Assembly (NCBI GenBank): GCA_031292255.1 | Contig: JARLHN010000029.1 | Coordinates: 62,001-126,000 of the forward strand | Direction: 5' to 3' | DNA: 64,000 bases | Source: Oryzomonas sp. | Lineage (GTDB): Bacteria; Desulfobacterota; Desulfuromonadia; Geobacterales; Pseudopelobacteraceae | Shown: piece after piece, positions 18,388 through 40,464 of the stretch | Layout: every line of letters begins with the position of its first letter | Position numbering within the stretch: position 1 is the first letter of the stretch | Notes under the pieces: model-generated | The model's input: the letters and a program-made list of their open reading frames with translations, nothing else | Databases searched by the model: none | Told to the model about the DNA's origin: nothing | Translations under genes and position numbers: made by a program

Positions 18388-18990
18388 ATGACCGACATCA
18401 AGGCGCAAATCAAGGAATTCCGCATCGGCCAGAAGATCAGGGGGCTCCGCCAGCAGAAACGGCTGACCCTCCAGGAGTTGTCCGATCTGACGACACTTTC
18501 AAAACCGCTTTTGTCGCAAATCGAAAATGAGCAGGTCGTCCCCCCCTTGGCAACGCTTCTCAAAATCGCCAAGGGGCTCAAGGTCGGCATCCATTTTTTC
18601 TTCGAGAACGAAAGCAGCCGCCAGAAATACGTCGTAACCAAAAAAGAGACCCTTCGGGAGTTTGAAGCGGTTCAACGGCCGGTAATCAACGATGTTTCAC
18701 GCCCCTACATCTACCATTCCCTTGCCCAGGGGATGCGGCACAAACACATGGAACCGTTTCTGGTTGAGTTCGACACATGCGACTGGGACGAGCGGCTCTT
18801 CTTCAAACATGAGGGCGATGAAGAATTTCTCTATATCGTGGAAGGTGAGCTGGATCTCCATTACAACCAGGAAATCATCCGCCTGCGCGCCGGCGACAGC
18901 ATCTACTACGACTCAAGCCAGCCCCATGGCTTGGTTGCCGTGGGTCAGGATAAGGCGAAGGCCGTGGCGGTACTGTACACTAAGGATTGA
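18388..18990 (+). CDS. XRE-family regulator with C-terminal cupin domain
   Basis: Transcription factor of 200 residues. An HTH of the Xre/SinR type (about 16-70, KIRGLRQQKRLTLQELSDLT, then LLSQIENEQVVPPLATLLKIA) is joined to a cupin (about 115-195) with HEGDEEFLYIVEGELDL and DSSQPHGLVAVG. Such proteins often control amino-acid, polyamine or redox genes and bind a small ligand in the cupin; the target is unknown here. The Shine-Dalgarno AGGGAGG is 6 bases before the ATG at 18388. A weak promoter (TTGAAA at 18314, TAAATA at 18336) lies upstream. Confidence 0.88.
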   Translation: MTDIKAQIKEFRIGQKIRGLRQQKRLTLQELSDLTTLSKPLLSQIENEQVVPPLATLLKIAKGLKVGIHFFFENESSRQKYVVTKKETLREFEAVQRPVINDVSRPYIYHSLAQGMRHKHMEPFLVEFDTCDWDERLFFKHEGDEEFLYIVEGELDLHYNQEIIRLRAGDSIYYDSSQPHGLVAVGQDKAKAVAVLYTKD

Positions 18991-32482: not shown

Positions 32483-32687
32483 AGGTTGTTCAAAAATAGT
32501 CAGATCGTCGCACCCGCAGTATAATCGCCTCAGGCGATTATCGGTGACGGAGCGCCAGCGGAGTTCATCCCGAAGGGACAGAACCGGAACGGTTCAGCTA
32601 AAGGCACAGAGGGAGGCGTGAGCCTCGCTACGCCGCACGAAAGAGCCTTCGAGGATGGCGGCGAGACGGCTGTTTTTCAACAACCTT
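32483..32687. repeat. 205-bp fold-back repeat
   Basis: The ends AGGTTGTTCAAAAATAG (from 32483) and CTGTTTTTCAACAACCT (to 32687) are inverted repeats with two mismatches and resemble those of the 5849-5992 element. Inside is a perfect palindrome ATAATCGCC-TCA-GGCGATTAT (32521-32541). It fills nearly the whole 250-base gap between the M16 gene and the znuA-like gene and almost touches the latter's stop codon. Confidence 0.7.
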
Positions 32688-32693
32688 CCAAGC

Positions 32694-33665
32694 TTACTTA
32701 CACTGCAAACCGGTCCTCAGATTGTCAAGGTTCTTTTTCATCAGGGAGATGAAGGTTACGCCGTGATCCAGATCATCCTTACTGATATTATGGGCGCCAT
32801 GAAGCAAAAGTACGGTCGCCCCGGTCTCCATGGCGATCACCTCCGAGACGCGCGGCGAAAGAAGCTCCTCGCTGTAAACGAACTTCAGGTCCATGGCTTT
32901 CACCTGCTTGACGAGCGCGATCAGTTTGGCCGGCGTCGGTTCGGCATCGGCGTTTACCGCCGAGGCGGACTCATACCGGAGACCGTAGCGGTGGGCAAGA
33001 TAGCCGAAGGCGTAGTGGCCGCCATGCAGGAATACCCGCTTGGCGCAGGTGGACAGCCCGGTCCGGTAATCGTCGTCGAGCCTCTTCAGTTCCGCCTTAT
33101 AAGCAGCGGCATTGGCCAGGTAATACGCCTTATTGGCCGGGTCCCTGGCAACCAAAGCCCCGGCGATGTTGTCCACCATGATCTGCGCGTTACCGAAGTC
33201 AAGCCAGATGTGCGGGTCCATGCCGCCACCATGGTGGTGGTGCCCCGTGCCGTCGTGGCCATCGTGTTCGTCCTCCCCACCCTCCTCCCGGCCTGCCTTG
33301 AGAAAGGTAACGCCCCTGCTTGAGTCAACCAGCGCCACGTTCCCGGCATTCAGGCCTTTGACGAAATTCATCGCCCAGGGCTCCATGTACTCGTTGGTAA
33401 AGACGAAAAGGTCTGCCTTGGTGATCCTGGCGGCATCGTCCGGTTTTGGTTCAAAGGAGTGCGCCTCGACGCCCGGAGGGAGGATCAGGCTGACATCCGC
33501 CTTGTCCCCGCCGATGGTCCGGGCAAAATCGTACAGTGGAAACAGGGTCGTCACAACAACCAGCTTTTTCCGGGCCGAAGGGGAAGACGGCGCCTCCTTT
33601 TTCTGGCAGGCGCACACCAGCGTCAGGCAGACGAACAAGATTACGGCGAACGATATACGCTTCAT
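32694..33665 (-). CDS. znuA: Zinc ABC transporter substrate-binding lipoprotein with His-rich loop
   Basis: Cluster A-I metal-binding protein of 323 residues. The signal peptide ends in a lipobox, LVCAC (C20), so it is lipid anchored. The mature part starts KLVVVTTLFPLYDFARTIGG and has the metal ligand region GVEAHSFEPKP. A flexible His/Asp-rich loop (EDEHDGHDGTGHHHHGGGMD, about 131-150) precedes DPHIWLDF; this loop is a mark of zinc rather than manganese binding proteins. It is encoded away from the ABC genes, past the S9 peptidase, and is a second binding protein for the same or a related importer. Confidence 0.88.
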   Translation of the reverse strand: MKRISFAVILFVCLTLVCACQKKEAPSSPSARKKLVVVTTLFPLYDFARTIGGDKADVSLILPPGVEAHSFEPKPDDAARITKADLFVFTNEYMEPWAMNFVKGLNAGNVALVDSSRGVTFLKAGREEGGEDEHDGHDGTGHHHHGGGMDPHIWLDFGNAQIMVDNIAGALVARDPANKAYYLANAAAYKAELKRLDDDYRTGLSTCAKRVFLHGGHYAFGYLAHRYGLRYESASAVNADAEPTPAKLIALVKQVKAMDLKFVYSEELLSPRVSEVIAMETGATVLLLHGAHNISKDDLDHGVTFISLMKKNLDNLRTGLQCK

Positions 33666-33747
33666 GCGTGAGTCTCCAGTAATTGAATTATTTCCTGAAT
33701 CTGAGAAGACGTCACGGATTCAGGTTATTTTTAACATGGCGGTCAGT

Positions 33748-33877
33748 AACCGCAACGACGCAAAGGGCGCAAAGAAATTGAACTGTTTATGAAAATAAAG
33801 ACTCCGACCAAACAGGTGATAGACTTTAATAAGACAACTGACCGATTTTCCACCGCGTACTTTGCGTCTTTGCGGTT
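33748..33877. repeat. Fold-back element with AACCGCAACGACGCAAAG-type arms
   Basis: AACCGCAACGACGCAAAG (33748-33765) pairs with CTTTGCGTCTTTGCGGTT (33860-33877) with one mismatch; the interior is AT-rich. It separates the S9 peptidase gene from the znuA-like gene and could act as a transcript end. Confidence 0.65.
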
Positions 33878-33893
33878 CAAATGCTTTTCAGAT

Positions 33894-35810
33894 TTATTTA
33901 CCGAGGTACTGACTGAAAAATGCCTCCATGGCGCCATAAAAGTCGAACTGATTTTCCTCATTGTGGAAACCGTGCCCCTCGTTCTCCTTGACCATATACT
34001 GAACCGCAACACCGCGTTTCCTTAATGCCTCAACCATCTGGTCGGATTCGTTCTTGTTCACACGGGGATCGTTGGTTCCCTGTGCGACGAAAAGCGGTGT
34101 TTTAATCCTGTCGGCATGGAAGACCGGAGAAGACGCGTTCAGCAGCTCCTTGTCCTTTTCCGGATCGCCGACCATTTCATGCATCATCTTCAGATACGGC
34201 GCCCAGTAAGGGGGAATGGACTTCATGAAGGTGAAAAGGTTCGCGACGCCGACATAGTCCACAGCGGCGGCATAGAGGTCGGGGGTAAAGGTCACGCCGG
34301 CCAACGTGGCATAGCCTCCATAGCTTCCGCCATAGATGCCGACACGTTTGGGATCGGCAATACCTTCGCGGATGAGCCACGCGACACCGTCGGTGATGTC
34401 GTCCTGCATGGTCCGCCCCCACTGTTTGAAGCTTTTTTCCCAGAAAGCCCTGCCGTAACCCGTGGAACCTCGATAGTTAATCTGGAAAACGGCAAACCCC
34501 CGGTTGGCCAGAAACTGGATTTCAGGATTAAAACCCCAGGAATCGCGACTCCAGGGACCGCCGTGAGGATTGACGATAACAGGGAGATTCCTGGCCTCGC
34601 GATTAAGGGGAAGTGTCAGATAGCCGTTAATCTTCAGGCCGTCCCTCGTTGTATAGGTTACGGCTTGCGTGGTTGCCATATGAGCCGGATCGATGCGGGG
34701 ATTGATCTCCCCGAGAGTCGTCAGAGTGTCCGACCTGGCGGAATAGACGTAGCGGGTACCGGGAGTACGGTCGCTGTAGGCTGCCACAATGAACATGTCT
34801 TCAGCGAGATTTTCATTCTGGATGACCACCTCATAGCCGGGCAGTTTCCCTTGAAGCCGGGCAAAGAGGGCTTTGGTTTCAGGGTCGAAGAAATGCCGCT
34901 GTTCCTTCCAGGTGTTGAAATTTGCCTGGGTGAGCACCTTGCGTTTGTGGGAAAAGGACGCGCCATCGAGGTCCACATCGGGATTTTCAAAGAGTGGTTT
35001 TGATTCTTCGCCACTGTCCGGATCGAGAATCACGAGCGCCGTCTTATCCCGTCCGCGGTTTGAGAGGGCATAGAGAGATTTATTGTCGAAGGTGAAGAAC
35101 AACGGCGCCACCGTGGTGCGGAAGTCCGTGGTCAGTACGGTCTTGAAAGGGTCCTTCTCCGAAGAACGAGACAGGAGGCTGGTGTTCACGCCATCGGTCG
35201 TCGTGGCGATGCGGACCCGGCCCGCATGGTCGGTAAGCCACTGCGTGATGTTGCCCGGATTCTGCGCCACCAGCGTGGAATCACCGGTGATCACGTTGAT
35301 CCGATACACGTCGAAAACCTTCGAATCCCTTTTGTTGTGTTGTACCAGCACATGGTCAGGGTCGTCTCGCAGATCGTCCACGATGGATGCCCGGATCTTT
35401 GGAAGCGGTGTAAGATCCTTTACCTTGCCGCTTAGCACATCAACGGAGACAACATGATAGTTTTCGTCCCCGCCGAAGTCTTTGACATAGAGGATGTGGC
35501 TGTTCCCCTTCCAGAAGAAGCCTGCGATATCACGCTCCGTCTCCTCGGTGAGGCGCCTGGCCCTGTTAAAATCCGGCGCTGTGCCGTCCGGCGGCAGGAG
35601 CACCACATGCAGGTTTTCCCGTCGTTTGTAAGGCTGCATGAAGCCAAGCGTTTTCCCGTCAGGAGAGAGACGGAAGAATGAGCGGTCCGGCTTGCCGAAA
35701 AAGTCCCGCACATCGTAGCGCTTCAAGGGTTCCGAGGCCATGACGGGACTGGCGATAATGGATAACAGCACGACGTTGCAAATGCTGTTTGCGAGTGAGG
35801 TATGCCTCAT
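33894..35810 (-). CDS. Periplasmic S9 family prolyl oligopeptidase-like peptidase
   Basis: Serine peptidase of 638 residues. A signal peptide (about 1-25, ending PVMA-SEP) precedes a beta-propeller (about 30-375) with repeats such as RLSPDGKTLGFMQPY, then an alpha/beta-hydrolase domain. The nucleophile Ser lies in YGGSYGGYATLAG, the acid in FVAQGTNDPRVNKNES and the His in ENEGHGFHNEENQ. The family cuts short peptides, often with acyl- or prolyl-specificity. It follows the metal permease gene by 96 bases and is probably in that transcript; the link to metal uptake is not obvious. GGAG precedes the ATG. Confidence 0.92.
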   Translation of the reverse strand: MRHTSLANSICNVVLLSIIASPVMASEPLKRYDVRDFFGKPDRSFFRLSPDGKTLGFMQPYKRRENLHVVLLPPDGTAPDFNRARRLTEETERDIAGFFWKGNSHILYVKDFGGDENYHVVSVDVLSGKVKDLTPLPKIRASIVDDLRDDPDHVLVQHNKRDSKVFDVYRINVITGDSTLVAQNPGNITQWLTDHAGRVRIATTTDGVNTSLLSRSSEKDPFKTVLTTDFRTTVAPLFFTFDNKSLYALSNRGRDKTALVILDPDSGEESKPLFENPDVDLDGASFSHKRKVLTQANFNTWKEQRHFFDPETKALFARLQGKLPGYEVVIQNENLAEDMFIVAAYSDRTPGTRYVYSARSDTLTTLGEINPRIDPAHMATTQAVTYTTRDGLKINGYLTLPLNREARNLPVIVNPHGGPWSRDSWGFNPEIQFLANRGFAVFQINYRGSTGYGRAFWEKSFKQWGRTMQDDITDGVAWLIREGIADPKRVGIYGGSYGGYATLAGVTFTPDLYAAAVDYVGVANLFTFMKSIPPYWAPYLKMMHEMVGDPEKDKELLNASSPVFHADRIKTPLFVAQGTNDPRVNKNESDQMVEALRKRGVAVQYMVKENEGHGFHNEENQFDFYGAMEAFFSQYLGK

Positions 35811-35906: not shown

Positions 35907-36794
35907 TTATCCGGCAGCCGTGGTCCTGCGGGAGATGATGATAGCGGCAACACTCCAGGCTACCGCGTAAAGCGCCCCCAGAAGGACGACATCCGTGGGG
36001 CCTACAGGCAAGTCCCACGTATACGCAATGAGAAACCCCAACAATGCGACCACGCCGCCAATCAAGGAAGCCATTATGGTGAACTGGTGCATAGTGCGGG
36101 CAAACAGGTGAGCCGTCAAAGCGGGAATCAGCAGGAACCCGAATGCGATCAACGGGCCGACACTAAGCACCGCCATGGAAACGGTCAGGCCGATGAGGAC
36201 ATAGAGCACCACGTCCCATAAAACGACCTTTTTCCGCATTATGATCGCCGTTTCGCGGTCGAACGATACGAGGAGCAGTTCTTTGTGGAATAGTCCCAGG
36301 ATCGCAACCACGAGCGCAAGCGTTGCTGCGGTCAGCACGAGATCCGAATTTGAGATGGTGATGACTTCCCCTTTCATCATATCCAGCCAACCGATCTCAC
36401 CATAGGGATTCTTCGCCAGCAATAGGATACTCAATGCGGATGCCACGACATAGGCAGTGCCGAGCCGCCCCTCGGGTTGTCCGCGGCCGCGTCGTTCCAG
36501 AAACGCCAACAGTAGAATCGCGGACAACGAGAATGTCACCGAGCCGATGAAGGCGAGCGTGTGAGCGCTGTGCGAGCTGTGTTCGGCCAGCTTGAAACCG
36601 AACCACATGGGTAAGGAAAGTGCGATGGCAACACCGGTCGAGGAGATCTGCGGCAGCGCCACGCCCATGAACACGAGCCGGCGCACCACGAGAAATACGC
36701 CGACGAGTGGACAAGCGAGCCCGACGAGCACGCTCGTGTAGATTGAATTGCGCAACAGAAAATCAGGCGAGAGAATTTGAGAGAGTGTTTCCAT
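35907..36794 (-). CDS. znuB: Zinc/manganese ABC transporter permease
   Basis: Integral membrane subunit of 295 residues, ABC-3 family, with about eight helices. It begins METLSQILSPDFLLRNSIYTSVLVG and shows LVVRRLVFMGVALPQISSTGVA (the usual ABC-contact coupling region), and VSMAVLSVGPLIAFGFLLIPA. The frame stays open upstream within znuC, but the ATG at 36794 has GGGGGAAG before it and lies two bases after the znuC stop, so it is the true start. It works with the ATPase at 36796 and one or both binding proteins. Confidence 0.93.
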   Translation of the reverse strand: METLSQILSPDFLLRNSIYTSVLVGLACPLVGVFLVVRRLVFMGVALPQISSTGVAIALSLPMWFGFKLAEHSSHSAHTLAFIGSVTFSLSAILLLAFLERRGRGQPEGRLGTAYVVASALSILLLAKNPYGEIGWLDMMKGEVITISNSDLVLTAATLALVVAILGLFHKELLLVSFDRETAIIMRKKVVLWDVVLYVLIGLTVSMAVLSVGPLIAFGFLLIPALTAHLFARTMHQFTIMASLIGGVVALLGFLIAYTWDLPVGPTDVVLLGALYAVAWSVAAIIISRRTTAAG

Positions 36795-36795
36795 A

Positions 36796-37509
36796 CTAGA
36801 CTTCCCCCCTTTCAAACATTTCCGCCACCCGCTCGACTGAAAGCAGCTCACCTGTCGGGCCACACATGACAGTGCCCTCGTGAAGCCAGATGACATGCCC
36901 GGCATAGTGACGCGCCGAAGCGAAATCATGGGTGACGAGCAGGACGGTAATTTTTCGTTCCTTGTTGATGTGAGAAACAAACTCCAGCACCGCTTTGGTC
37001 GCCTCGCGATCCACCCCCGCAGTGGGTTCGTCCAGCACCAGCACTTCGGGGCGCGTCGCCAAGGCACGCGCTATGAGTACGCGCTGTTTCTGTCCGCCTG
37101 AGAGTTCGGCAAAGCGCCGGCCGCCAAACTCTTCGGCACCCGCAGCGCGAAGGCATTCGCGGGTGAAGTCGCGTTCGCCTGCCGGGACCATGCGTCCCGG
37201 CCCAATTCGCCCGTACACGCCCATGAGGGCGACATCGAACCCCGTCAGCAGATAAATCGGGTCAAACTGGATTGATTGCGGGACGTAACCGAACACAAGC
37301 GGCGCACCCGACGTTGCGGCATCTATGCGGCCGGCGACCGGCGGAAGCAACCCAAGTATGGTTTTCAACAACGTCGATTTGCCTGAACCATTGACGCCGA
37401 GAATGGCCGTGAATGAGGCATCGGCTATAGAAAGCGAGATGCCGGACAGCACCGGCTGACTGTTGTAGCCGATGCTCACGTTGTCCAGTGTGATAAGCGC
37501 CTTATTCAT
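36796..37509 (-). CDS. znuC: Zinc/manganese ABC transporter ATPase
   Basis: Cytoplasmic ABC subunit of 237 residues. Walker A GVNGSGKST is at 38-46, the Q-loop in YVPQSIQFD, the signature ELSGGQKQRV, Walker B VLVLDEPTAGVD and the H-switch in LLVTHDFASA. Family length is normal. Lies 51 bases after the binding-protein gene and one base from the permease gene, forming the tight core of the importer operon. Confidence 0.95.
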   Translation of the reverse strand: MNKALITLDNVSIGYNSQPVLSGISLSIADASFTAILGVNGSGKSTLLKTILGLLPPVAGRIDAATSGAPLVFGYVPQSIQFDPIYLLTGFDVALMGVYGRIGPGRMVPAGERDFTRECLRAAGAEEFGGRRFAELSGGQKQRVLIARALATRPEVLVLDEPTAGVDREATKAVLEFVSHINKERKITVLLVTHDFASARHYAGHVIWLHEGTVMCGPTGELLSVERVAEMFERGEV

Positions 37510-37560: not shown

Positions 37561-38490
37561 TTATCTTTTTGGTGCTGCGGCAACCAGTGTATGGATAATG
37601 TAGTCCATCATCTTGATGTACGTTTCCGTGTGCGGCACACCGCCCGGCATGATGGGGAGCGTTACCATCGTCGCGCCTGCTTGCTCGGCGATACGTTTCG
37701 GCGCCTTTTCAGGGAACTGCGGCTCGCGCACGACGATAGGCACATGTCCGGCCCTCATAGCCGTGACCAATTCCTGGATATGACGCGGGGTCGGATCGAC
37801 ACCCGGCTTCAGTTCGATGGTCTCGAAGTAGTTCATGCCGAAACGGGCCGCGAAGTATGGCCAATGCTCGTGATAGGATACGAATTTCGTCCCCCTGATC
37901 GGTTTGACCGCTTTCTCCCACTCGACGATTCTGGCATTGAGTTTGGCGAGATAGGCATCGCGGTTGCGCGTGAATTCGGCCTTGTGCTGCGGCGCAAACG
38001 TCACCAGCGCGTTGTAGATGTTCGCGATGGCGGTCTTTGCCAATACCGGGTCGAGCATGTAGTGCGGATTGCCGTAAGGATGAACGTCCCCCTCGGAATG
38101 ATCGGTTGATTTGGGTACTTCGCGCGGGATGATCCCCTTGGAGCAGTCAACATAACCGGGTTTGTTAACCTGGATGCGCGAATTCCTGCTCGCTTCCATG
38201 AGCGCCGGAAGGAAGGCATGTTCGCAATCGAACCCCACCAGGACCAGAAGGTCGGCCCGGTTCATCATCGGTACGAAGCTCGGCTTCATCGGCACTCCGT
38301 GGGTGTCTTCGACTCCGGTTGCCAAACTGCGGACCTCGACCAGATCTCCCCCAACTTCGCGCGTGAAGTCCGCCAGGTCGGTAAGGGTAGTGACGACCCG
38401 GATTTTTGCCGCGTGAGCAGGCAGTGCACCCAGGCACAAAACCCCGACCAGCACGATTATCGGGAATATTCGGAACAGTTTTGTATTCAT
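37561..38490 (-). CDS. Metal ABC transporter substrate-binding protein (AztC/cluster A-I type)
   Basis: Periplasmic binding protein of 309 residues. A signal peptide ends in PAHA-AKI; the mature part starts KIRVVTTLTDLADFTREVGG and carries DTHGVPMKP, then GDVHPYGNPHYMLDP and SYHEHWPYFA, which supply the metal-binding histidines. Unlike the znuA-like protein at 32694 it lacks a His-rich loop and a lipobox, and the GDVHPYGNPHY form resembles AztC-type zinc or Mn binders. The ATG at 38490 fits GGAG 9 bases upstream; the earlier TTG is too close. Zinc is the favoured ion but manganese cannot be excluded. Confidence 0.88.
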   Translation of the reverse strand: MNTKLFRIFPIIVLVGVLCLGALPAHAAKIRVVTTLTDLADFTREVGGDLVEVRSLATGVEDTHGVPMKPSFVPMMNRADLLVLVGFDCEHAFLPALMEASRNSRIQVNKPGYVDCSKGIIPREVPKSTDHSEGDVHPYGNPHYMLDPVLAKTAIANIYNALVTFAPQHKAEFTRNRDAYLAKLNARIVEWEKAVKPIRGTKFVSYHEHWPYFAARFGMNYFETIELKPGVDPTPRHIQELVTAMRAGHVPIVVREPQFPEKAPKRIAEQAGATMVTLPIMPGGVPHTETYIKMMDYIIHTLVAAAPKR

Positions 38491-38512: not shown

Positions 38513-39952
38513 TCAGCGTTGTTGCCAACCATGCGAGTGGGCGCCAATAATCCACGCCCATTGCAGGTAAACGGCATGATCGGGCCGCAGGCCGAATGCG
38601 GCTGTCGATTCGGCGTTGTGGTCGGTGTATGTATACTGGAGACGGATCTGGTTCCAGTGACTGGTGACCCACGTAACATACGGAGAATACGCGAAAGTTT
38701 TGGCTTTCTTGTCCACCGCGTCCTCCACAAATTCGTACATGAAACCGGTAGTCCACTGCCGGTCGAACTTGTAGGCCAGGTACGAGTAGAGGCCGAGAGC
38801 GCCGACTGAGCCGCCAGGGATGGCGTTTCCCCCTGTATTGGTTATATCGTAGCGGTTGTCGCTGTAAAGGAGTTCGGTCCCCCAGGTTACGCTATTGAAC
38901 TGATTGTCGCGGAGCGGCTTGTAGCTTAGCACCAGATCAGCTCCATAGAGACGGCGTTCGCGCTCAATGAATGTGTTTTTGGCCAGGGTCGCGGGAAAAT
39001 CGGGATTGCCGCCGGGACCGCCGGGGTCAGCCCACTGCGAAGCCGTACGTGGGTTCCAAAGACCGGAGATGCCCGGCTCCAGCGAGATATCAGGAGTCAG
39101 ATCGAAATAGGAGGACAAGCGGCTCCAGAAGTTCAAACCGCTGAGGTGGCGGAACTCGCCGGGATTGTTGGGAGGATTGTCGCCCCCGAACTGCGTGCCC
39201 AGGCCCGTTGTCAGGCTTACATAATGATCGACCGGCAAAAGCCAGTTCAGCTGCGCCCCGTCGGTCCTCGATTCGCCGCCGATGTATTGGGCAAGCGCCA
39301 GCGGGCGATTCACGACCGGGAGTTCATGGTCGTGGATGTATCCCAGCCTGCCGAATTCGCCGAAGAACCGGCCCGCCTTCAACTCCAGGTTCCAGGGGAG
39401 TGACGTTGTCTGCAAAGCGGCTTCCTCAAGCCCCCAAGCCAGTTCGCCGGTTACCGGATCGGCCGACCCGTTGGCAACGATATAGGCCTTGGCGAACGGA
39501 TCGACTGACGCTGCCGCGTTCAACTCCACCGAACGTTGGTATACATCAAACCCTCCCGGCCGGTCGCTGCCGGTCTGGGACGGTCCCTTGCCGCGATAGC
39601 CGAAGATCGTCTCACCCACGACCCCGATGGCGGGATTGAATATGCCGGGTTGAGTCCTGGTCTGGTTTTCGACCACCTTCTCCACCTTCTCTTTCAACTC
39701 CTCTACTTGCTGCTGCATCTCCCCGGCCGGCACCGGTTGCCCGGCAGCAACGCCCTCCGGCTGAGGCGATGGTTGCCGTTTTACCTCGGACTTCAATTCT
39801 TCAATCATTTTTCGCTGTTCATCAATGGTCTGTTCCTGTTTTTTCAGGGATTCCTCAAGAGCTTTTATTCGATCTTCCAGGGTTTGAGCAAATACACCCG
39901 TTGAAAACAAGGAAAGGACACAAAACGTGATGAGCGTGGTTATGACCTTCAT
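38513..39952 (-). CDS. Outer membrane beta-barrel porin with coiled-coil N-terminus
   Basis: The 479 residues begin with a signal peptide (MKVITTLITFCVLSLFSTGVFA) and a trimerisation-type coiled coil (about 24-60, LEDRIKALEESLKKQEQTID), then a Pro-rich linker and a barrel with alternating strands ending near AVYLQWAWIIGAHSHGWQQR. This layout is common in Geobacter metal-responsive porins and O/P-type channels. GGAGG lies before the ATG at 39952; earlier in-frame starts lack a signal. It lies 22 bases upstream of the binding-protein gene, so it probably carries metal ions or their complexes into the periplasm for this importer. Confidence 0.85.
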   Translation of the reverse strand: MKVITTLITFCVLSLFSTGVFAQTLEDRIKALEESLKKQEQTIDEQRKMIEELKSEVKRQPSPQPEGVAAGQPVPAGEMQQQVEELKEKVEKVVENQTRTQPGIFNPAIGVVGETIFGYRGKGPSQTGSDRPGGFDVYQRSVELNAAASVDPFAKAYIVANGSADPVTGELAWGLEEAALQTTSLPWNLELKAGRFFGEFGRLGYIHDHELPVVNRPLALAQYIGGESRTDGAQLNWLLPVDHYVSLTTGLGTQFGGDNPPNNPGEFRHLSGLNFWSRLSSYFDLTPDISLEPGISGLWNPRTASQWADPGGPGGNPDFPATLAKNTFIERERRLYGADLVLSYKPLRDNQFNSVTWGTELLYSDNRYDITNTGGNAIPGGSVGALGLYSYLAYKFDRQWTTGFMYEFVEDAVDKKAKTFAYSPYVTWVTSHWNQIRLQYTYTDHNAESTAAFGLRPDHAVYLQWAWIIGAHSHGWQQR

Positions 39953-40107: not shown

Positions 40108-40428
40108 TCAGACGGGAGGAGCGCGGTTTTGCGGGGAATGACAAAAACGGGTTACTACACAGATGAGGACAAGGATTGCAGAACAGGCTGGGAATGTGAA
40201 CGGCAGGTAGGTGACGGCGTGAAGCGTTATCGTGACATCGGCGGTGCGATGGTGGGCAACGGCGCAGATGGGACAATCATCGTCGTGGTCGCGTCCATCG
40301 TCGTGGTGATGGAAGGCGGCCAGCAGGATCGAGAACAGCATAAGCATCGACAGCGCAAGCGCAATAACACGGCGATGCTGCCTGTACTCCGGGATGCTGT
40401 TCCCGGTTATGCGTGATGGTGACTTCAT
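40108..40428 (-). CDS. Small membrane protein with His/Cys metal-binding cluster
   Basis: A 106-residue protein. After about 20 basic residues comes a hydrophobic helix (VIALALSMLMLFSILLAAF), directly followed by HHHDDGRDHDDDCPICAVAHH, a dense run of possible metal ligands with a CxxC; a second hydrophobic stretch lies at about 75-95. It resembles the loosely defined DUF2946-type proteins found near metal uptake genes, but I cannot place it firmly. It is the first gene downstream of a palindrome-controlled promoter, ahead of the porin (155-base gap). There is no Shine-Dalgarno, and transcription would start within a few bases of the ATG, so the mRNA may be leaderless. Confidence 0.65.
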   Translation of the reverse strand: MKSPSRITGNSIPEYRQHRRVIALALSMLMLFSILLAAFHHHDDGRDHDDDCPICAVAHHRTADVTITLHAVTYLPFTFPACSAILVLICVVTRFCHSPQNRAPPV

Positions 40429-40435
40429 GATTACA

Positions 40436-40464
40436 AATAGAAACAGTTTCTATTCATATGTCAA
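40436..40464 (-). promoter_or_regulatory. Sigma70 promoter covered by a 9-1-9 palindrome (putative Zur/Fur-family site)
   Basis: On the minus strand TTGACA (40464-40459) and TCTATT (40441-40436) are exactly 17 bases apart. The perfect palindrome AATAGAAAC-A-GTTTCTATT (40436-40454) covers the -10 and most of the spacer. The 19-base 9-1-9 geometry is that of Fur-family operators, though the sequence is not a known Fur or Zur consensus. With the metal-uptake genes downstream, a zinc-sensing repressor is the best guess. Confidence 0.75.

Follow-up and report, generated by a model that had tools for sequence, protein, structure and literature searches.

A palindrome of 19 bases that lies across the promoter of a metal-uptake cluster raises the question of which regulator it serves and which metal that regulator senses. 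The original prediction, made on a stretch of 64,000 nucleotides from an Oryzomonas contig (the whole of which is called the window here), was of a perfect 9-1-9 palindrome overlapping the -10 element and the spacer of a promoter with TTGACA and 17-base spacing, ahead of genes for a His/Cys-rich small protein, a porin, a binding protein and an ABC transporter. This description of the site and of the genes behind it proved accurate. The sequence AATAGAAACAGTTTCTATT is perfectly self-complementary about its central base, and in minus-strand coordinates the -35 element (40464-40459) is followed by a 17-nt spacer (40458-40442) and by a -10 element, TCTATT (40441-40436), which matches TATAAT at 4/6 positions and sits inside one arm of the palindrome. 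The palindrome takes in the last 13 bases of the spacer and the entire -10, and so overlaps the core of the promoter, as a Zur operator would. The ATG of the small protein at 40428 stands only 7 nt beyond the -10, and therefore the transcript would be leaderless or near-leaderless. Comparison of sequences makes it highly probable that the palindrome serves as operator for Zur, a zinc-dependent repressor of the Fur family that is encoded on another contig of the same genome (C18) upstream of znuCB. The coordinates of the promoter and of the cluster are collected in Table 1.

Table 1. Putative operator, promoter elements and downstream genes, in positions of the window.
Feature	Position	Strand	Basis
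Zur operator (putative), 9-1-9 palindrome AATAGAAACAGTTTCTATT	40436..40454	.	layout, relatives' sites, exact copy in L162
-35 element TTGACA	40459..40464	-	TTGACA also present in G118, G072, G045, G121
-10 element TCTATT, within palindrome, 17-nt spacer	40436..40441	-	sequence reading
Small His/Cys protein (106 aa), secreted or in the membrane, start near-leaderless; resemblance to DUF2946 sub-threshold	40108..40428	-	
Porin-like beta-barrel, N-terminal coiled coil	38513..39952	-	structure model, Foldseek
ZnuA/AztC-like metal-binding protein SBP1 (probable ATG start)	37561..38490	-	PF01297 1.5e-54
ABC ATPase, AztA-like	36796..37509	-	167.6 bits, cut-off 220
ABC-3 family metal permease (start codon presumed)	35907..36794	-	PF00950 2.2e-37
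S9 prolyl-oligopeptidase-family peptidase, probably same transcription unit	33894..35810	-	
SBP2, second ZnuA-type binding lipoprotein (presumably same transcript)	32694..33665	-	

The small protein carries the motifs HHHDD...DHDDDCPICAVAHH and a C-terminal NRAPPV; it falls below the Pfam gathering score for DUF2946 (16.1 vs 23.7), and 13 of 15 of its homologues match DUF2946 at E values up to 1. The model of the porin is a beta-barrel following a coiled coil (mean pLDDT 67) and its best Foldseek match in the PDB is OprP (TM 0.52/0.60), alignment against the sequences of solved structures gave weak matches only (best E 0.047, to amylases), and a tblastn search of plasmid records yielded one weak match, in Vibrio campbellii (26%). 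SBP1 finds its best NCBIfam match in AztC, and the equivalog cut-offs for AztA, AztB and AztC were all missed (167.6/220, 91.3/280 and 97/350 bits respectively). The order small gene, porin, SBP, permease is kept in 15 of 16 loci from relatives, all of them chosen by their SBP1 homologue; among these 16 the contig of L051 stops just beyond the porin, and the small gene of L037 (3658-3966, genome G045), which lies on a short contig, is broken by a stop or frameshift. In G110 (L036) the S9 peptidase gene adjoins the small gene. SBP2 is the orthologue of the relatives' box-proximal ZnuA (45-82% identity). The box lies about 150 bp upstream of an SBP2-type znuA in G114, G115 and G117; the order in G118 is box, small gene, SBP2; and in the window a block of porin, SBP1, ABC and S9 genes intervenes between the small gene and SBP2. 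It may well be the case that SBP2 shares the transcript of the boxed promoter, and no position in the window other than the site itself exceeded 16.1 bits in a scan with the position weight matrix described below.

Taken by itself the palindrome is not significant, since two perfect 9-1-9 palindromes were observed in the window against a mean of 0.47 expected (60 Markov-1 simulations, largest count 3), and rarity was rejected as evidence. The second palindrome is at 32522, between the gene for SBP2 and that for an M16 peptidase, and repeat-like inverted sequences were seen at 33700-33890 and 32522-32540, between the genes for the S9 peptidase, SBP2 and the M16 peptidase. At up to 3 mismatches the 19-mer occurs once in the window, at 40436-40454, and the sole other match in the whole genome is at C24:29478, with 3 mismatches, giving 2 matches per strand vs 3 with a reversed control pattern. 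With up to 2 mismatches allowed, a search of the family matched 10 of 76 genomes vs 16 of 76 for the reversed control, and only the G118 site was useful. The significance of the site comes from its position and conservation, not from its letters alone. In G118, a member of the same genus, AATAGAAATTATTTCTATT occupies the same promoter ahead of the same small gene, and the full site, TTGACATCTGAATAGAAATTATTTCTATTTATTAACATG, has the layout seen in the window with the C-N-G centre changed to T-N-A, symmetrically in both halves; C-N-G is the rarer of the two centres. Imperfect palindromes stand at the equivalent position, with the -10 in one arm, in G072 (AAACGAAAATAACTTCTATTT), G045 (AAACAAAAGTAGTTTCTATTT) and G121 (AAATGAAAATAATTTCTATTT), and by eye 5-7 nt separate the -10 from the ATG in each of the five genomes (window 40426-40441). 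Some distant relatives come near this spacing, and a leaderless or near-leaderless start of the small gene may be conserved. In several other relatives (e.g. L039, L046, L047) TTGACA near the ATG is kept and the palindrome is absent. Genome G121 also has a 92-aa Fur homologue consisting of the DNA-binding domain only (L043:9464-9742), which terminates shortly before the Zur box and the small gene and could be read as a truncated or competing regulator.

The original prediction went on to suggest a lineage-specific Zur (or Mur) box, and the suggestion is supported both by the genome's own Zur-like regulator and by a search of relatives for the motif upstream of znu-type genes. The pattern AAATRGAAAYNRTTTCYATTT, which was drawn partly from the window site, matched 61 of 141 Geobacterales genomes at up to 2 mismatches, and its reversed control 17 of 141. 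Seventy-five sites were transcribed from a total of more than 75, the site of G134 being among those outside the 75, and for 33 of the 75 the distance to a ZnuA-family gene downstream is at most 800 bp, against a rough expectation of 0.017. Extending the distance to 3 kb brings the number to 35, the added two being the small-gene sites of the window's genome (G000) and G121. Eight of the other 40 sites stand directly before a gene of the C18 type (G000, G114, G115, G118, G036, G042, G044 and G056), and among the matches listed G000 has only two sites of this pattern, the window site and the one in the C18 promoter. Nine of the remaining 32 were placed at XRE-cupin promoters (2), at two-gene modules or similar (4), at the start of a gene that we take to be lpxK-like (2) and at an unassigned position (1), and similar palindromes also precede unrelated genes. 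The published 23-mer of Geobacter sulfurreducens, at up to 3 mismatches, was found in 24 of 141 genomes and in none of the window's own family, with a single match to the reversed control, in G110. Where a Fur homologue stands between the box and znuA it is of the C18 type, with 45-53% identity and 139-154 bits vs 58-80 bits for the Fur encoded on C2.

A position weight matrix was built from 28 unique znuA and zur boxes, the small-gene sites being excluded, and gave scores of 25.0 bits for the window site, 31.2 for G118, 29.7 for G045, 31.4 for G072 and 37.1 for G121, the last of which is not independent because a training box (G074) has the same 21-mer. The window site tops the window (next 16.1 bits) and its score was reached by 0 of 12.0 million Markov-1 positions; its score is under that of the lowest training box (28.0). 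A matrix made from zur promoters only again placed it first, narrowly, at 20.9 bits vs 20.1 for a low-complexity AT-run, the random-stretch null having been dropped for this matrix since the stretches were drawn from box-rich loci. The pattern derived from the window site had supplied part of the training set, and the test on regulator loci given below therefore weighs more.

The window's genome contains three genes of the Fur family, of which that on contig C2 adjoins feoB, that on C10 adjoins a rubrerythrin-like gene and that on C18 lies upstream of an ABC ATPase/permease pair (znuCB). The C18 protein has the Fur-family domain PF01475 above cut-off and its promoter carries AATAAAAATTATTTTCATT, so that a candidate cognate Zur with the same kind of box is present in the genome. 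Related boxes, placed by eye, come directly after the -10 in 14/14 C18 orthologues of the family, six of them being too asymmetric to appear in the palindrome listing at up to 2 mismatches. Overall similarity does not favour Zur over Fur for the C18 regulator: it scores 46.4 bits against the NCBIfam Zur equivalog NF008646 (cut-off 167), its best NCBIfam model is Fur with 74.4 bits (cut-off 220), and its best matches among solved structures are Fur proteins. An alignment of the 14 orthologues has Cys84, His89-His92 and Cys95/98/135/138 invariant, and the gapless alignment of their profile with Streptomyces Zur places Cys84, His89 and His92 on C79, H84 and H87 of ScZur. In ScZur C79 and H87 are residues of the M-site, and H84 and E105 are residues of the D-site (PMC11077047). 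The M-site pair thus has its counterparts in Cys84 and His92 in 14/14 orthologues, and the D-site has an invariant counterpart for H84, the position aligned to E105 not being conserved. The C2 and C10 paralogues appear by eye to be without the M-site cysteine. This cysteine favours zinc over manganese, and it bears on the proposal that the site is a Mur-type operator, at which a protein of the same family would respond to manganese. That proposal deserves little credence: the ZnuA and MntC families of binding proteins overlap and SBP1 does match manganese models below their cut-offs, but its best match is to a zinc-binding protein, AztC, and the regulator has a zinc-site residue that was not seen in its Fur and PerR paralogues.

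The distribution of the regulator provides the more demanding test of which protein reads the box. Thirty-two loci were collected by similarity of protein to the C18 regulator. In 24/24 loci with at least 37% identity (37-80%) the best box of the locus preceded the regulator by about 27-71 bp; this was so in 0/8 loci with 30% or less, among which L176 offers hardly any DNA upstream. Geobacterales account for nine of the 24 loci, several of their boxes being identical to training boxes, and 15 are from outside the order, with the best box just upstream of the regulator in 15/15; the latter are all metagenome-assembled genomes, assigned to Nitrospira/Nitrospirae, Thermodesulfovibrionales, Nitrospinales/Nitrospinota, Omnitrophota and, in one case, plain bacterium. 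The Nitrospirae bacterium NC_groundwater_1767 (L162) has AAATAGAAACTGTTTCTATTT upstream of its Zur orthologue, and this contains the exact 19-mer of the window. Genes of the znuC/znuB type (ATPase/permease) follow the regulator in 22 of the 24 loci and ZnuA is found in 17; the two exceptions for ATPase and permease are L162, where the stretch ends just past the regulator gene, and L171, where none was seen.

The presence of the regulator can also be set against that of the box at the small gene. The small gene occurs in 25 of 141 genomes, nine with a C18-type regulator (E below 1e-40) and 16 without, and 30 of the 35 listed matches to it were scanned, covering all 25 genomes. A box of at least 25 bits within 330 bp upstream of the small gene was present in five of the nine genomes with the regulator and in none of the 16 without it (Fisher test about 0.002, calculated by hand and uncorrected for kinship between genomes), all other small-gene loci scoring 14.9 bits or less. 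Within the family the figures are 4/4 with the regulator and 0/10 without. The scan found no box before the small gene in 20 of the 25 genomes carrying that gene, and four of these (G049, with 92 bp available, G004, G054 and G065) have both regulator and small gene. Genome G110 is without a C18-type regulator; its second copy of the small gene has a weak box-like site of 14.9 bits at the same offset, and its SBP2 promoter carries GATGTTATATTATAACATA beside a different Fur homologue. This last site (L036:12339-12357) is an E. coli-type Zur-like palindrome, and the other Fur homologue is divergent from SBP2; regulator and box have apparently been swapped.

These counts bear on the proposal that the site is an iron operator bound by the C2 Fur, encoded beside feoB, which must be considered improbable. 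The delta-proteobacterial Fur box, WTGAAAATNATTTTCAW (PMC545781), shares its general form with the site, but 6 of its 16 informative positions differ in the window site as compared by eye; the genes around the site are zinc-type, and 8 of the 10 small-gene genomes of the family that have neither C18-type regulator nor box do have another Fur-family match. The box in zur's own promoter, AAATAAAAATNATTTTCATTT, is within one letter of WTGAAAATNATTTTCAW, and Fur control of zur is possible. It is very unlikely that the site belongs to another protein altogether, such as an XRE-cupin regulator, an autoregulated two-gene module or a PerR-like protein. The XRE-cupin sites (AAATAGAAACTAGTTTTATTT) and the module sites (like ATATAGAAATAATTTCTATAT) do resemble it, but orthologous XRE promoters of the window's genus are without the palindrome and no link of the XRE gene or of the module to metal genes was seen; in G036 and G042 (L199, L204) the znuA box has a PerR-like gene as its neighbour, but both genomes also have a C18-type regulator with its own box elsewhere. 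That the site is a chance palindrome on a promoter can be virtually dismissed, for although the number expected per window allows it, the site persists at its position in G118 and, in weaker form, in G072, G045 and G121, and its exact 19-mer lies upstream of zur in another phylum.

The XRE-cupin and two-gene-module operators were rejected as candidates, no link to the window locus having been seen, and may be described in their own right. Sites of the AAATAGAAACTAGTTTTATTT type lie before an XRE-cupin regulator in two Geobacter-like genomes (L236:2115 in G026 and L237:2288 in G052), the orthologous promoters in the window's genus share CAAATTGTATA(C/A)AAA instead, and a paralogue of this regulator with 39% identity is encoded at 18415-18972 of the window. 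Palindromes of the ATATAGAAATAATTTCTATAT type occur near a small module in L229-L232 (G066, G071, G099 and G105) and look like the autoregulatory operator of another protein. An ORF starting MAHAxRITRPRLTAV, presumably DUF2442-like, is nearby in three of these four.

If the palindrome is indeed the Zur operator, then under zinc sufficiency a metal-loaded Zur dimer on the 19-mer would cover the spacer and the -10 and exclude RNA polymerase. When zinc is low Zur would leave the DNA and the near-leaderless transcript would start, encoding the His/Cys small protein, the porin and the AztC/ZnuA-like binding protein with its ABC transporter; the S9 peptidase and the second ZnuA are probably on the derepressed transcript too. 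A broader proposal, on which our own judgement is evenly divided, concerns a single Zur subfamily that Geobacterales would share with Nitrospirota and a handful of further phyla and that would have an operator code to itself, AAATAGAAAYNRTTTCTATTT. In some Geobacterales this subfamily would have taken control of an uncharacterised path of zinc import, the leaderless transcript of which would encode a regulated outer-membrane porin, a periplasmic HHHDD-DHxDCxICxxxHH protein and the dedicated ABC importer that these two supply. Genomes without the regulator would lack the box as well, and in G110 a different Fur homologue stands beside an E. coli-type box. The window site and its counterparts offer a usable model of the operator for zinc regulation in a large metal-reducing group and its distant relatives, a group for which the literature found gave one predicted site, and the operator marks the unannotated porin and His/Cys small protein as likely parts of zinc uptake.

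This operator with its gene cluster was not met in the literature on Zur and zinc uptake in Geobacter, Desulfuromonadales, Nitrospira and Oryzomonas; RegPrecise, outside that scope, may hold a Zur regulon for the group. The cluster itself can be compared with the AztABC zinc importer, whose AztC, AztA and AztB are resembled by SBP1, the ATPase and the permease, all below cut-off, and the accessory genes differ. The E. coli-type Zur box has the core GTTATANTATAAC, and is alike in proposed function to the window site but different in its letters; this is the type found before SBP2 in G110 and not in the window. In Caulobacter, Zur sites such as GATGTTATATCATAACAAT have been described, and the same study lists two DUF2946 genes among those downregulated, CC2720 being the one of the two that has a candidate site and lies beside the czr genes (PMC4176598). 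Zur boxes are known to differ among lineages and may be 9-1-9 palindromes, often overlapping the -35 and sometimes the -10 (PMC6103462). Two motif strings were not met among the literature matches listed, and nothing on the box stood in passages of PMC2923632. The Gram-positive Zur box consensus, TAAATCGTAATNATTACGATTTA (PMC545781), is like the window site a long AT-rich palindrome with one central base, but the letters of the arms differ. The kind of operator is nevertheless known already, a relative of the site having been predicted in 2004: Rodionov et al. gave the ZUR_Gs site of the zur-znuABC genes of G. sulfurreducens as TAAAtgGAAATgATTTCtgTTTA (PMC545781). The layout of that site is alike, the G118 site matching it at 19/23 positions and the window site at 16/23 (by eye), and many genomes of the order have a regulator of the C18 type placed between a box of this kind and znuA, ZUR_Gs itself probably being of this type. 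The ZUR_Gs site is single and placed before zur-znuABC, whereas the window site, with its C-N-G centre, heads a cluster of small protein, porin and ABC transporter.
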